Of a DNA stretch of 64,000 nt, positions 1-59,688 are shown one piece after another; position 1 is the stretch's first letter, and each line of letters opens with the position of its first letter. Origin of the DNA: Betaproteobacteria bacterium RIFCSPLOWO2_12_FULL_62_58 (lineage in GTDB: Bacteria > Pseudomonadota > Gammaproteobacteria > Burkholderiales > SG8-41); NCBI GenBank assembly GCA_001772005.1, contig MERI01000241.1, positions 1-64,000 on the forward strand. The letters run 5' to 3'. Both the position numbers and the translations under genes were made by a program. The notes under the pieces are model-generated. The model saw only the letters and a program-made list of their open reading frames with translations. It searched no databases and had not been told where the DNA came from.

Positions 1-94
1 GTGACGCCCTTGCCGTTTCCCTAGCCTTCGGCTCTGCGAAAACCTGGCTGTCGGACTCCCACCGACATAGTTACGTGCCATGCCCGGCACACAC
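1..94 (-). mobile_element. Possible 5' end of a group II intron, cut by window edge
   Basis: Read on the minus strand, this stretch begins GTGTG followed by CCGGGCATGGCACGT. It then has a hairpin GTCGG-TGGGAGT-CCGAC and ends GGCAAGGGCGTCAC at the window edge. The GTGYG start, the CGGGCATGG block and the short GGGAGTCC hairpin are features I associate with the 5' domain of bacterial group II introns. The reverse transcriptase would lie beyond the left edge and is not visible. The call rests on remembered consensus, so it is tentative. The intron would begin at about 92-94, inside the attC-like site that follows. Confidence 0.4.
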
Positions 95-150
95 GTCCGC
101 AGCCACCGGCGCGCGCGCGTCCGCGTGGGCTGCGTAGTTAGGCGTCACCT
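95..150 (-). other. attC-like integron recombination site, apparently interrupted
   Basis: On the minus strand, GTGACGCCTAAC contains the inverse core GCCTAAC (RYYYAAC) right at the stop codon of the upstream gene. The arm CGCAGCCCAC follows, then a GC-rich loop, then GGTGGCTGCG. These arms pair except for one extra C in the first, which is the extrahelical base expected of attC sites. The expected second core GTTAGGC is missing because the candidate intron starts there. The gene-to-site spacing is typical of gene cassettes. Confidence 0.5.
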
Positions 151-714
151 TCCGAGAAGACGGCATAGTTCTTCGACGAACCGCACATGCGTTCGATGAC
201 CTATCTGCGGACGATCAGTGCCCGAGTACGTCGCGCGCACCTTGACAAAGTGGCCCCTTCGACTGGCTAGGTAGAGATGTGAAAGTACCGTCTCACGAAC
301 ACCGGGCTTCACCTCGGTGTATTGGAAGGCCGCGTGTAACATCGGTACGCCAGCTACGTTAAAGCGTTCCTCCTGCGCCAGGACTTTGGCATCGGAATAG
401 GTTTGGTGGATGTTGCTCTTGGCCTCGGCAAATTCGCGTTGACTTGTTAGGGCATCTATACCGTCAGGAAGTCTTTGAAGTGTTCGGTCATAGACGAATA
501 CAGATATCTTTACGCCAGGAGCGTTGTATAGCAGCGTGACGCCGAGTCCAGGGTTTGTCTTGTCGTTGTCAATTACTGATTGGAGTTCAAAGCCCGCCAG
601 TCGTTTCGGAAAATCAAACCCGCCGACCACCTCACCGCGCAAGGATTGGCTAAGGGTGAGGAGAAAAGCTCCAATGGCGCAAGCGAAGACCTTCCGCAGG
701 ATGTGGGCTGACAT
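145..714 (-). CDS. Hypothetical secreted protein, probable integron cassette gene
   Basis: The 189-residue protein starts at an ATG at 714. I prefer this to an upstream in-frame Met because the hydrophobic stretch (residues about 6-22, ending near RGE) then becomes an N-terminal signal peptide. The mature part is a mixed alpha/beta-looking domain with no motif I recognise. Its stop codon lies inside an attC-like site, as in cassette genes, and it shares orientation with the next cassette-like gene at 803-1186. It is not linked in function to the moa genes. Function is unknown; export to the periplasm is the only prediction I would make. Confidence 0.6.
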   Translation of the reverse strand: MSAHILRKVFACAIGAFLLTLSQSLRGEVVGGFDFPKRLAGFELQSVIDNDKTNPGLGVTLLYNAPGVKISVFVYDRTLQRLPDGIDALTSQREFAEAKSNIHQTYSDAKVLAQEERFNVAGVPMLHAAFQYTEVKPGVRETVLSHLYLASRRGHFVKVRATYSGTDRPQIGHRTHVRFVEELCRLLGR

Positions 715-717
715 CTG

Positions 718-815
718 TCGCTTTGCTTTGTGAGAGACGGGCGTGTGCCCCCCGCGCCTGCACAGCAAAGCGATTCCGTTAGGGGCGACGTGGGGCGCCC
801 TCTTAGGCATCACGT
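718..815 (-). other. Degenerate cassette boundary (second attC-like region)
   Basis: On the minus strand, GTGATGCCTAAG overlaps the stop of the upstream gene and resembles an inverse core with one change. A stem TCGCTTTGC/GCAAAGCGA lies inside the region. No good GTTRRRY core closes the site, so it is either decayed or a shortened boundary. It is listed because it separates two same-strand orphan genes exactly where a cassette junction would be. Confidence 0.35.
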
Positions 816-1186
816 TTTGAAGCAAGTGCAAGCCTCACCTCCCTTTCCGCGGGGCACGCAACTCCGCCTGTGCCAAAGTCTGTATCAAAGGGAAACGCGC
901 GACATGGCCTGGGGCGGACCGGATAGATGCCGCATGCATATGTTGAGCCCTCTCGTTGAAGGAATGGGCAGGGACGCCGCTTCGCCTCATCTGGTATCCA
1001 ATGCTTTCCGTCGCCGGCGGAACTGCCGTAATACGTGTGGATAAGGTCTTTGATCGTCATCCCCAAGTACGTCGCCATATCATGAATCCGCTCCGGATCA
1101 TATGGAAGACCGGCCTCCATGCAGCACTTCCCACATCGATGGCACTTAAAGAGAGACCATTCCTCGGCGTTGCGTGGATGCACCAC
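803..1186 (-). CDS. YkgJ-like cysteine-cluster protein (putative Zn/Fe-chelating)
   Basis: The frame is open to 1384, but a cassette core site at 1195-1206 suggests translation starts inside it, at one of two adjacent GTG codons near 1183-1186, giving about 127 residues. The motif CHRCGKCC is followed by ACGIYPVRPRPCRAFP. This is the CxxCxxCC plus C-x-I-Y-x-x-R-P-x-x-C pattern of the YkgJ/UPF0153 family, thought to bind zinc or an iron-sulfur cluster. The stop lies in an attC-like inverse core. The start is uncertain and the cellular role of this family is not established. Confidence 0.6.
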   Translation of the reverse strand: MVHPRNAEEWSLFKCHRCGKCCMEAGLPYDPERIHDMATYLGMTIKDLIHTYYGSSAGDGKHWIPDEAKRRPCPFLQREGSTYACGIYPVRPRPCRAFPFDTDFGTGGVACPAEREVRLALASKRDA

Positions 1187-1349
1187 GGTATCTGTGACGC
1201 CTAACTTGTAATGAACCTGGTCGTAAAAAAGCTGAACCCATATACCAGCATATACAAGCATCTGCCTCCATATATCTGCATCTGCCCGAGTATATCTATC
1301 GGCATATCGTTTTCGTCCATCTCGCGCCCTCCCGCTCTCCCGGCTTCTG
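1187..1349 (-). other. Cassette core site plus short ATATG-rich direct repeats
   Basis: A GTTAGGCGTCAC core (GTTRRRY) reads on the minus strand at 1206-1195, matching the outer arm of the attC-like site at 138-148. Upstream of it (1230-1315) the minus strand carries repeats of GGCAGATGC followed by ATATATGG or TATATGC. This could be the attI-like end of the array or unrelated low-complexity DNA. No integrase gene lies next to it, since moaE follows directly. Confidence 0.35.
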
Positions 1350-1808
1350 TCAGCCTTTGAGCCGCCAGCGCCCGGCGGCGACATCGTCGGATGTGCGCGC
1401 GTCGACCCAGCGCGCGCCGGCGCCGGTCTGTTCTTTTTTCCAAAACGGCGCGCGGGTCTTCAGGTAATCCATGATGAATTCGCACGCGGCGAAGGCGTCG
1501 CCGCGATGCGCGCTGGTGACGACGACCAGCACGATCGGGTCGGTGGGCTTGAGAAGACCCACGCGGTGGATGACCAGCGCATCGAAGATATGCCAGCGGC
1601 CCCGCGCCTGGGTGACGATCTCCTCGATCGCCTTCTCCGTCATGCCGGGATAGTGCTCGAGGGTCATCTCGGACACGGCGTCGCCTTCGTTCACGTCGCG
1701 CACGACGCCGATGAAGCTCGCGATCGCGCCGATTTTCGGATTGCCGCGGCGCAACGCCGCGATCTCGGCACCGGTATCGAAGTCTTCGATCTGGATTCGG
1801 ACGGTCAT
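1350..1808 (-). CDS. moaE: Molybdopterin synthase catalytic subunit
   Basis: This 152-residue protein transfers sulfur from MoaD thiocarboxylate to cyclic pyranopterin monophosphate to form molybdopterin. The sequence shows the MoaE pattern GAIASFIGVVRD, LEHYPGMTEKAIEEI, HRVGLLKPTD and APFWKKE with the conserved lysines. The start at 1808 (MTVRIQIEDFD) was chosen because the upstream frame runs into a tandem-repeat hairpin. moaD lies just upstream on the same strand, about 130 bp away across that repeat. It fits a local set of cofactor genes serving the two molybdopterin enzymes in the window. Confidence 0.95.
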   Translation of the reverse strand: MTVRIQIEDFDTGAEIAALRRGNPKIGAIASFIGVVRDVNEGDAVSEMTLEHYPGMTEKAIEEIVTQARGRWHIFDALVIHRVGLLKPTDPIVLVVVTSAHRGDAFAACEFIMDYLKTRAPFWKKEQTGAGARWVDARTSDDVAAGRWRLKG

Positions 1809-1810
1809 AT

Positions 1811-1949
1811 TTGACGGGTGACGAGATAAGAGTGACGAAAGATAGTGACGAAAACGGGTGACGAACAAACTCTTCGTCTTCCGATTATTCTGTCGCGTCA
1901 CCTCTTCCCGTCACTTTTTCCGTCACCTCCTATCGTCACTCTCATCCAC
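1811..1949 (-). repeat. Degenerate-word hairpin built from GTGACGA
   Basis: On the plus strand one arm holds four spaced copies of GTGACGA. The other arm holds four copies of the complement (CGTCACC, CGTCACT, TCGTCACTC). The two can fold into a long imperfect hairpin. It fills the gap between moaE and moaD and reaches the 3' end of moaD. Confidence 0.7.
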
Positions 1950-2196
1950 CCGTAACTGGCGGAAAAAATGCGATCTCGTCACCGTCGGCAACCTGGGTGT
2001 CGCCGCTTGCGATATGCTGGTTGACCGCGGCGCGAACCGCTTTATTCGCGGCCAGTTCCTGGCCCCAGAACCCACCGCGGGCAACCAACAACGCCCGCAC
2101 GCCGTCGAGGTCCCGCACGTTCCGAGGCAGTACGATCTGTTCGGAGCCGGTACCCAACGCCTCGCGCAGCCGGGCAAAATAAAGCACGGTAATCAT
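1942..2196 (-). CDS. moaD: Molybdopterin synthase sulfur carrier subunit
   Basis: This 84-residue ubiquitin-like protein ends in Gly-Gly, the residue pair that is adenylated and converted to a thiocarboxylate to supply sulfur to MoaE. It starts MITVLYFARLREALG, the usual MoaD opening, and has GDEIAFFPPVTGG at the C-terminus. Length is normal for the family. It lies upstream of moaE on the same strand, so the two are probably co-transcribed despite the repeat between them. The activating MoeB-type enzyme is not in the window. Confidence 0.95.
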   Translation of the reverse strand: MITVLYFARLREALGTGSEQIVLPRNVRDLDGVRALLVARGGFWGQELAANKAVRAAVNQHIASGDTQVADGDEIAFFPPVTGG

Positions 2197-2246
2197 GGTG
2201 TTAGCTTACACCCCGGGAACCGCAATTCCAAGCGCAAAAACCATCA

Positions 2247-2319
2247 ACCACAGAGAGCACAGGGAAAAATATTGATGCTTTTGATATTTCTCTCTGTGTT
2301 CTCTGTGCTCTCCGTGGCT
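2247..2319. repeat. Hairpin of CACAGAG words between moaD and mobB
   Basis: The left arm reads CCACAGAGAGCACAGGGA and the right arm carries CTCTGTGTTCTCTGTGCTCTCCGTGG, its approximate complement. A short AT-rich loop separates them. From memory, similar ACAGAG/CTCTGTG repeats are scattered in many environmental bacterial genomes. It is one of the word-type hairpins of this window. Confidence 0.7.
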
Positions 2320-2331
2320 AAGGCCTTTCTG

Positions 2332-2826
2332 TCAGGCAAGCCCGACGTGCTTCAGGATGAAATCAGCGATGGCCTGTGGCTGATTGAGATCGAACTGCGG
2401 CAGGCGGGTGTCGAGGTGCTGGTCGGCGGCGATGGCGACGATATCCCCGTCGTGAGGATGCAGCAGCGATTCCCCGACCTCCACGCGATATACCTCGAGC
2501 TTGGGGACGTGTTCGCGCTTGAATCCCTCAATCAGCAGCAGATCGCAGGGCGTAATGCGCTTGACGTGCTCGGCGAGCCCGGGCTCGGGTGTGCCGTGCA
2601 GTTCATGCATCAGCACCCAACGGCGCGAAGACGTCACGAGCACCTCCGCACATCCGGCCTTCCGGTGGCGATATGAATCCTTTCCCGGCTTGTCGACATC
2701 GAACGCGTGGTGCGCGTGCTTGATCAGCGACACCTTGAGCCCGCGCACGGTGAACAGCGGAATCAGCTGCTCGATCAGCGTCGTCTTGCCGCTGCCGGAG
2801 TAGCCGGCAAAGCCGAAGACTTTCAT
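2332..2826 (-). CDS. mobB: Molybdopterin-guanine dinucleotide biosynthesis adapter MobB
   Basis: This 164-residue P-loop protein has Walker A GYSGSGKTT at residues 7-15, the KHAHHAFDVDKPGKDSYRHRKAG region typical of MobB, and LLLIEGFK as Walker B. MobB binds GTP and helps MobA form the guanine-dinucleotide form of the cofactor used by DMSO-reductase-family enzymes. The start at 2826 gives MKVFGFAGYSGSGKTT, which matches the family. An upstream in-frame Met is unlikely. mobA lies about 20 kb away at 22314, so the pair is split. Confidence 0.93.
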   Translation of the reverse strand: MKVFGFAGYSGSGKTTLIEQLIPLFTVRGLKVSLIKHAHHAFDVDKPGKDSYRHRKAGCAEVLVTSSRRWVLMHELHGTPEPGLAEHVKRITPCDLLLIEGFKREHVPKLEVYRVEVGESLLHPHDGDIVAIAADQHLDTRLPQFDLNQPQAIADFILKHVGLA

Positions 2827-2952
2827 GGACTGAAGATAAAATGAACGACGGATGATACTGCGATCCGCGCTTTCGAACCAGCACCAGCCGGCCCAGGGTA
2901 ATCCAGCATTCCGGGCACCGGCAATCAATGCGTTGTGATATCGTTCGCCGGC

Positions 2953-3705
2953 ATGGAACTCCAGGAAGTCATTATTCTGTGTGCGCTGTTTTTCCTGGTC
3001 GCGACCCTGTACACGACGGTCGGCCATGCCGGCGCTTCGGGTTACCTCGCCATGATGGGGCTCATCGGCCTGGCGCCCGCGGTGATGCGCCCCACCGCTC
3101 TCCTGCTCAACATTCTTGTCGCCGCATTCACCGTGTACCGCTTTCGCCAGGCGCGTTATTTTTCATGGCGTGGTCTTTGGCCGTTCCTGCTGGGCTCGGT
3201 GCCGTTCGCCGCATTGGGCGGCATGCAGAATCTGGCCCCCGGTAATTATTACGCAGCCGTTGGCGTCGTTCTGCTGCTGTCCGCCTTATACATGATCTGG
3301 CGCGCGCTCGGCTCACGCATTGCGATGGAAGAAAGCGTTGTTCGCGTCAAGCGCCTGCCCGCAATATTCATCGGGGCCCTGGTCGGCCTGCTGTCGGGTC
3401 TCACCGGGACAGGCGGCGGAATTTTTCTGAGTCCGACGCTGCTCATGCTCAATTGGGCCGGCCCGAAGACTACCGCGGGAATCTCCGCGCCGTTCATTCT
3501 GGTCAATTCCACTACAGCCCTGATCGCGGGAGCGGCGACGGTTCAATCGATCCCGCCCGAGATGCCCTGGCTTGCCGCCACGGCGCTCGCCGGCGCCTTG
3601 CTCGGCACCTGGCTCGGTTTGCAGCGGCTGCAGCAGAAAGGGCTGCTGTTGACGCTGGCGATTGTGATGTCGCTGGCCGGGGTCAAGCTTCTGCTTATCG
3701 CGTAG
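2953..3705 (+). CDS. TauE/SafE-family membrane transporter
   Basis: This protein of about 250 residues has seven or eight hydrophobic segments and the two half-repeats typical of TauE/SafE (formerly DUF81). The first carries TTVGHAGASGYLAMMGL and the second GLLSGLTGTGGGIFLSPTLL. Family members are proposed to export sulfite, sulfoacetate or related anions. The start MELQEV at 2953 is preferred; a Met six codons upstream is possible. It converges on tupA, and the two stop codons overlap by 11 bp. Sitting beside a tungstate transporter, it may handle an oxyanion, but the substrate cannot be read from sequence. Confidence 0.85.
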   Translation: MELQEVIILCALFFLVATLYTTVGHAGASGYLAMMGLIGLAPAVMRPTALLLNILVAAFTVYRFRQARYFSWRGLWPFLLGSVPFAALGGMQNLAPGNYYAAVGVVLLLSALYMIWRALGSRIAMEESVVRVKRLPAIFIGALVGLLSGLTGTGGGIFLSPTLLMLNWAGPKTTAGISAPFILVNSTTALIAGAATVQSIPPEMPWLAATALAGALLGTWLGLQRLQQKGLLLTLAIVMSLAGVKLLLIA

Positions 3706-59601: not shown

Positions 59602-59688
59602 GCCGAGGTGGCGGAATTGGTAGACGCACCAGGTTCAGGTCCTGGCGGTGGCAACATCGTGGGGGTTCGAGTCCCTTCCTCGGCACCA
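59602..59688 (+). tRNA. tRNA-Leu (anticodon CAG)
   Basis: The acceptor GCCGAGG pairs with CCTCGGC, followed by an encoded ACCA. The D loop has GGAATTGGTAGAC. The anticodon stem-loop is CCAGGTTCAGGTCCTGG with CAG. A long variable arm (GGTGGCAACATCG) and TTCGAGTC T loop complete a class II tRNA of 87 bases. It is divergent from rnr and starts 43 bp from its start codon. Confidence 0.97.

Follow-up and report, generated by a model that had tools for sequence, protein, structure and literature searches.

We report that the stretch of 64,000 nucleotides analysed here (the window, G000:C241:1-64000) very probably opens in the 5′-terminal part of a mobile group IIC-type intron, which lies in the top strand of an attC site, in the second core GT/TRRRY (the slash marks the insertion point), and which would be targeted to this site by the attC hairpin and a short EBS1. 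The intron is assigned below to a lineage, T, that is distinct in its reverse transcriptase (RT) from a bottom-strand lineage, B. A single attC intron of the top-strand kind is already in print; what the sequences collected here suggest as new is that this exception is a broad lineage with an EBS1 of its own.

The interrupted attC and its intron

The features that bear on the finding lie on the minus strand at the left end of the window.

1..92, minus strand: intron 5′ end, group IIC-like, lineage T (intron nt 1-92, with the 5′ end at window position 92)
93..94, minus strand: GT, remaining half of the second core R′ (GTTRRRY), from the sequence and the 3′-exon T in relatives
93..96, minus strand: proposed IBS1 ACGT, end of the 5′ exon, complementary to ACGT, the EBS1 candidate in relatives including L128
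93..143, minus strand: interrupted attC of cassette 2, with inverse core R″ GCCTAAC (143-137), hairpin, then GT
145..714, minus strand: gene of cassette 2, with 190 codons and its ATG at 714, without Pfam match (longest frame 145-831)
709..786, minus strand: probable attC, degenerate, separating cassette 1 from cassette 2, from sequence and fold
803..1205, minus strand: gene of cassette 1, for a protein with a CxxCxxCC zinc/iron-chelating domain (its frame is open from 1384)
1199..1205, minus strand: GTTAGGC core opening the cassette array
1350..3027, minus strand: flanking molybdenum cofactor genes, outside the array
1350-1901, minus strand: MoaE, in the flank
1942-2196, minus strand: ThiS family (MoaD-like) protein, in the flank
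2332-3027, minus strand: MobB, in the flank

The initial annotation had located the site at a molybdenum cofactor locus, and the three flanking genes, all on the same strand, bear this out. Motifs like GTGACGA and TCGTCAC recur in either direction at 1805-1950 of the window, between the genes for MoaE and the MoaD-like protein. The probable degenerate attC consists of CCCTAAC (784-778), a hairpin and an altered second core, GCGACAGATG, and its fold over 709-786 has a z of −2.48, with 3 of 200 shuffles equally stable. The hairpin of the interrupted attC, which lies in a G+C-rich stretch, is as stable as its shuffles (z −0.47), so that the hairpin alone proves nothing and the support has to come from relatives. 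Two details given earlier for this site need correction. Its arms had been described as pairing with a single extrahelical base, whereas the fold leaves three bases unpaired, each of them single and each in the 5′ arm; and the stop codon of the gene had been put inside the inverse core, whereas TGA (147-145) sits one base upstream of that 7-base element.

Beyond the hairpin the minus strand reads GT (94-93) and then GTGTGCCGGGCATGGCACGTAACT from 92 on, up to the contig edge. From 92 to 1 it presents a group II intron 5′ end, GTGTGCCGGGCATGGCAC...AACT, in agreement with the earlier proposal that a GTGYG-type intron end begins where the second core is expected. The GTGTGTG run permits, on its sequence alone, a start at 94 or at 92; we set it at 92 because this restores GT/TRRRY and RCGT in relatives. 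A 24-base pattern of the intron 5′ end has one exact match within the 64-kb window, against a chance expectation of 0.11 with up to three mismatches. The window's 92 nt are 92/92 identical to L128, from a betaproteobacterial MAG, and 91/92 identical to L061, and the agreement with full-length introns reaches 87/92 for L134 and 84/92 for L130. When 14 sequences including the window's were aligned, 99.5% of the cells in three helices were paired and 24 double-change cells were observed, compared with 7.7 in shuffles; sliding the helix partners made the pairing far lower. The conserved GTGTG start and the domain I helices, both group II features, are present in the window's 92 nt.

Full-length relatives of the window's intron match Rfam group II models for the catalytic domains (D1-D4, domain V; RF02001, RF01998, RF00029), and their proteins have RVT_1 and GIIM domains and score above the cut-off of TIGR04416; in two T relatives RVT_1 and GIIM alone were detected, pointing to an RT that lacks an endonuclease domain. 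An Rfam search of the 64-kb window, with 92 nt of the intron inside it, returned a tRNA at 59602-59685 as its sole match. By these comparisons, a genuine group II intron starts with the 92 nt, and its 5′ exon is the attC after a cassette gene. The central claim of the initial annotation, that an attC is interrupted at this position by an attC-recognising group II intron, is thus upheld by the 92-nt identity, the covariation and the relatives. The assignment of the 5′ end to class IIC starts from solved IIC introns and is supported by the comparisons. As position 1 is the contig edge, the rest of the intron is unseen; domain V, EBS1 and the RT of this copy, all beyond intron nt 92, would be expected from its relatives.

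It is exceedingly improbable that a palindrome and a GTGYG-like string met here by chance with no intron present, or that the contig end is chimeric. The hairpin z near zero, the 277 contigs of the source assembly and its 6.25% estimated contamination would allow for such an accident, but the full identity to L128 comes from an independent assembly, the helices carry compensatory changes, and the same junction recurs in further attC sites, including two of the source genome.

Other copies in the source genome

Two further intron 5′ ends in attC-like exons were found in the source genome, on contigs C255 and C205, together with four intron 3′ ends of the same type, which are followed by TAGGC (C71), TAAGC (C31), TAGGC (C253) and TAGCT (C116), in keeping with the T-RRRY expected after the intron. 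RT pieces are also present, the best being 79% identical over 216 residues to a Herbaspirillum protein. Several contigs of the genome end within such introns, which explains the contig edge at position 1. At L003:1076-1170 (G000:C205), a T intron is cut down to approximately its first 100 nt; after it come a different gene and one more GTTAGGC core.

The window's 92 nt might likewise be a dead 5′ fragment and not the start of a full intron, a possibility that we consider unlikely, though one to be taken seriously. The piece of about 100 nt on C205 has cassette-like sequence directly after it, many T copies elsewhere are broken (among the matches listed), and none of the three 5′ copies in the source genome is seen complete. 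The contig, however, stops inside the intron like others in this genome, as repeated near-identical introns do to assemblies, and the 92 nt show no decay relative to L128. We prefer to regard them as the edge of a mobile intron that runs on past position 1.

The initial annotation had spoken of an orphan array, a description to be taken as tentative. Three integron-integrase genes of the source genome score above the family cut-off, all on contigs other than the window's. They lie at C211:13783-14724, C168:58753-59691 and C116:4925-5851; two are open and one has two internal stops. An integrase fragment (C255:39273-39467) shares its contig with a T intron 5′ end. The group II introns on contigs C114, C148 and C51 are of another kind: their domain V differs, they have the 3′ end CCCCTAT/C, and by their 3′ exons they are not associated with attC.

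Strand and orientation of lineage T

Lineage T was surveyed by scanning 84,980 genomes with an intron 5′ pattern from which the exon is absent; the sites obtained are a sample. Among the matches listed, the 5′ exon ends CGT in 93/102 unique pattern sites; seven of the nine sites that do not end CGT are terminator or chance sites, which gives 93/95 within lineage T, and the two remaining T sites have CGC or CGG in its place. In all 20 readable copies among the matches listed, T is the first base of the 3′ exon (TA in 16, TG in 4), so that removal of the intron would restore GT/TR. Judged by the longest upstream frame, 67 of the 95 T introns among the matches listed are sense and 9 antisense, whereas 13 are unclear and a further 6 too short to judge. 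The 5′ exon fold was more stable than a control stretch in 84/90 T sites and a strict RYYYAAC core stood upstream in 33/89, again among the matches listed. The counts of 3′ exons, orientations, folds, upstream cores and hosts given here, and the Fisher and hairpin-arm comparisons below, leave out the terminator or chance sites L054, L063, L113, L120, L122, L126 and L129, as well as the terminator introns L164, L179, L183 and L185, which were caught by the B pattern. Hosts of lineage T among the matches listed are Pseudomonadota, Thermodesulfobacteriota, Myxococcota, Lentisphaerota and Verrucomicrobiota, one Bacillota and two candidate phyla.

Canonical attC sites serve as insertion sites at L149 and L150. 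The canonical attC of aadA1 in pR148 and that of aac(6′)-Ib in pPp47 are each interrupted by a T intron, in the top strand and sense with the cassettes. The window's intron is found in the top strand at R′, after ACGT, sense with the cassette 2 gene. An upstream hairpin with a short IBS1, which is a IIC trait, is present in lineage T; the window has the hairpin too, at a stability not above that of shuffles.

An attC offers CGT/T at R′ in its top strand and TTGT/T at R″ in its bottom strand. Excerpts of PMC7923331 place the IIC-attC introns in the bottom strand, at R″ with TTGT/T, opposite to the cassettes, and S.ma.I2 and Kl.pn.I3 are introns named as group IIC-attC in excerpts of the literature. 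Lineage T is like them in being IIC-type, in having an RT/maturase, in adjoining the attC hairpin at GT/T and in living in cassette arrays, but differs in its top-strand position at R′, the junction RCGT/T, the sense orientation, the EBS1 candidate ACGT and a separate RT clade. The initial annotation had filed the window's intron with the known introns of attC hairpins, an assignment that does not hold for a top-strand, sense intron at R′, in ACGT/T, from a separate RT lineage. Because it is inserted in an attC but departs from the IIC-attC introns in strand and orientation, it would work like a IIC-attC intron while falling outside the definition of that group.

A group IIC intron of Enterobacter cloacae is described in the excerpts of PMC7923331 as lying in the top strand of an attC, in the same orientation as the cassettes, and as not being a IIC-attC intron; the case is that of Rodriguez-Martinez, Nordmann and Poirel (2012, J Bacteriol 194:150), also cited in excerpts of PMC6591265. 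Compared by these partial descriptions, lineage T is like it in strand and cassette orientation, whereas in them the E. cloacae intron is reported as one case with neither a lineage nor an EBS1 of its own; its membership of lineage T is quite possible. A lineage-level account of top-strand attC introns was not found in the open-licence literature, a weak negative. Other group IIC introns insert after intrinsic terminators, according to excerpts of PMC4424553 and PMC8919778. Lineage T shares with these a hairpin upstream of the insertion and a short IBS1, and has its nearest RT relatives among them; the terminator-inserting introns, in contrast, have T-rich terminator-tail exons and the EBS1 candidate CAGA (4 copies).

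Comparison with bottom-strand introns

Comparators in the bottom strand were sought with the pattern TTGTGTGYGNCNGGCATG, which occurred at 5 places in 369 genomes of the class, none of them an attC, and with a longer pattern, which gave no match in 398 genomes of the phylum. These TTGTGTGYGNCNGGCATG-type searches missed lineage B because it begins GTACGCCC. A search by RT in 299 genomes of the phylum yielded terminator introns and others, and no attC introns as far as the 5′ ends were readable. Lineage B was found via RTs lying opposite to T introns. At L107 such an RT stands opposite to a T intron, and the RT's own intron starts with GTACGCCCAGCATGGGCAT after TTGT. The string GTACGCCCAGCATGGGCAT recurs in 356 plasmid records, and four of five plasmid stretches with a B intron, the fifth being the exception, have resistance-cassette surroundings in which the intron runs against the cassettes. 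On these grounds of strand, exon and context, we take lineage B to stand for the IIC-attC introns.

In orientation, the 23 B sites comprise 1 sense, 14 antisense, 7 unclear and 1 too short, and the difference from the T sites among the matches listed is highly significant (Fisher p 1e-9). The hairpins differ as well: T hairpins among the matches listed have more unpaired bases in the 5′ arm in 56/85 and in the 3′ arm in 15/85, compared with 2/21 and 16/21, respectively, for B hairpins. Such an opposite arm bias is what an asymmetric site type should show when its two strands are compared. Both introns meet at L107:3044-3120 (Marinobacter xestospongiae contig50), where one 77-bp attC carries a T intron in one strand and a B intron in the other; the hairpin lies between their 5′ ends, which point towards one another.

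Inspection by eye suggests a similar two-intron attC, missed by the script, at L211 (Endozoicomonas). Going by stretches L260-L264 and the 356 plasmid records, class 1 integrons on plasmids of Enterobacterales often contain B introns; the 5′ domain of T introns has matches in some ten records of that plasmid collection.

The EBS1 candidate

At an aligned domain I site, the sequence is GGGCACGTGAC or GGCACGTAAC in T introns and GGCACAAGAC in B introns; L128, identical to the window over the first 92 nt, carries GGGCACGTGAC. Among the matches listed, the EBS1 candidate within this motif is ACGT in 38/40 T copies with a motif match, the other two reading otherwise, and the motif was not matched in 23/63 T copies of sufficient length, most of them broken and 3 outside the lineage. 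The corresponding candidate is ACAA in 10 B copies, with the motif unmatched in 7/22. Four terminator introns, inserted after TCTG or TTTG, have CAGA as their candidate. Each candidate is complementary to the exon of its own introns (ACGT to RCGT with G-U allowed, ACAA to TTGT, CAGA to TCTG). From alignment and complementarity, we infer that the domain I motif is EBS1. The choice of the opposite strand by lineage T would then apparently be due to the four differing letters of the targeting sequence.

An identical 15-base insert, CCGGAGCGCCGGCCG, occurs at the homologous domain I place after GGTCT in L105 (T) and L232 (B), and similar short G+C-rich inserts are found elsewhere in L108 and L231. 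The 15-base insert is perhaps a tiny repeat element invading these introns.

Phylogeny of the reverse transcriptases

RTs were labelled T by the 5′ motif together with a CGT exon, and every motif-bearing protein had this exon; identical proteins were counted once. The first tree left out 9 of 57 rows (three repeated T rows, one truncated B duplicate and five distant rows). In the resulting tree of 48 sequences, T (16 rows) and B (10 rows) are each set apart from all other rows by a single branch (support 100/99), and the T RTs sit among those of terminator-inserting introns (88/92), not with B. A second tree, from which three more rows with long branches were left out, gave the same picture, with T and the terminator introns together at 80/93. 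The RT of lineage T accordingly falls outside the B clade, B being a stand-in for the IIC-attC clade.

These trees bear on a rival classification of the window's feature, namely as an ordinary textbook group IIC-attC intron, bottom-strand and antisense. An attC is indeed targeted, and T and B share domain I features and Rfam families; strand, orientation, core and EBS1 candidate nevertheless differ, the window's exon being ACGT and its intron sense with the cassette gene, and the RTs form separate clades, with a tree that joins T and B worse by 23 log units (p-AU 0.02). We consider this classification very unlikely. The separate T and B clades and the p-AU value argue for two origins, so that two independent gains of attC targeting are favoured by the sequences, although not proved.

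Discussion

The reading that we prefer, a mobile IIC-type intron in the attC top strand, suggests the following mechanism. The top strand of the attC, when single-stranded, would fold into a hairpin, which the intron ribonucleoprotein would recognise in place of IBS2. The short EBS1 ACGT would pair with the RCGT that ends L′-R′ of the top strand, and the next base, T, would act as IBS3. The intron would reverse-splice at this point and then be copied by its own RT. The bottom strand of the same site would present TTGT/T, to be read by lineage B with the EBS1 ACAA. In this manner, about four EBS1 bases would choose the attC strand and with it whether the intron comes to lie sense or antisense to the cassettes. 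A sense intron would be part of the cassette transcript and might be removed from that mRNA by splicing, while at the DNA level it would split the cassette recombination core.

On a wider scale, we incline, with some reserve, to the view that group IIC introns gained the ability to invade attC at least twice and on opposite strands, B at R″ and T at R′, with the strand set by an EBS1 of ACAA or ACGT, and with the T introns sense and splitting the core. If this is true, T and B can occupy one attC from both sides.

Integrons spread resistance genes, and attC sites are the hinges on which they turn. If a few EBS1 bases set the strand, attC introns would offer a clean natural system for studying how group II introns read DNA hairpins, and could show which attC strand is single-stranded in cells. 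A sense intron in the second core should differ from the antisense kind in its consequences for cassette transcription, for cassette exchange and for the proposed cassette-making role.
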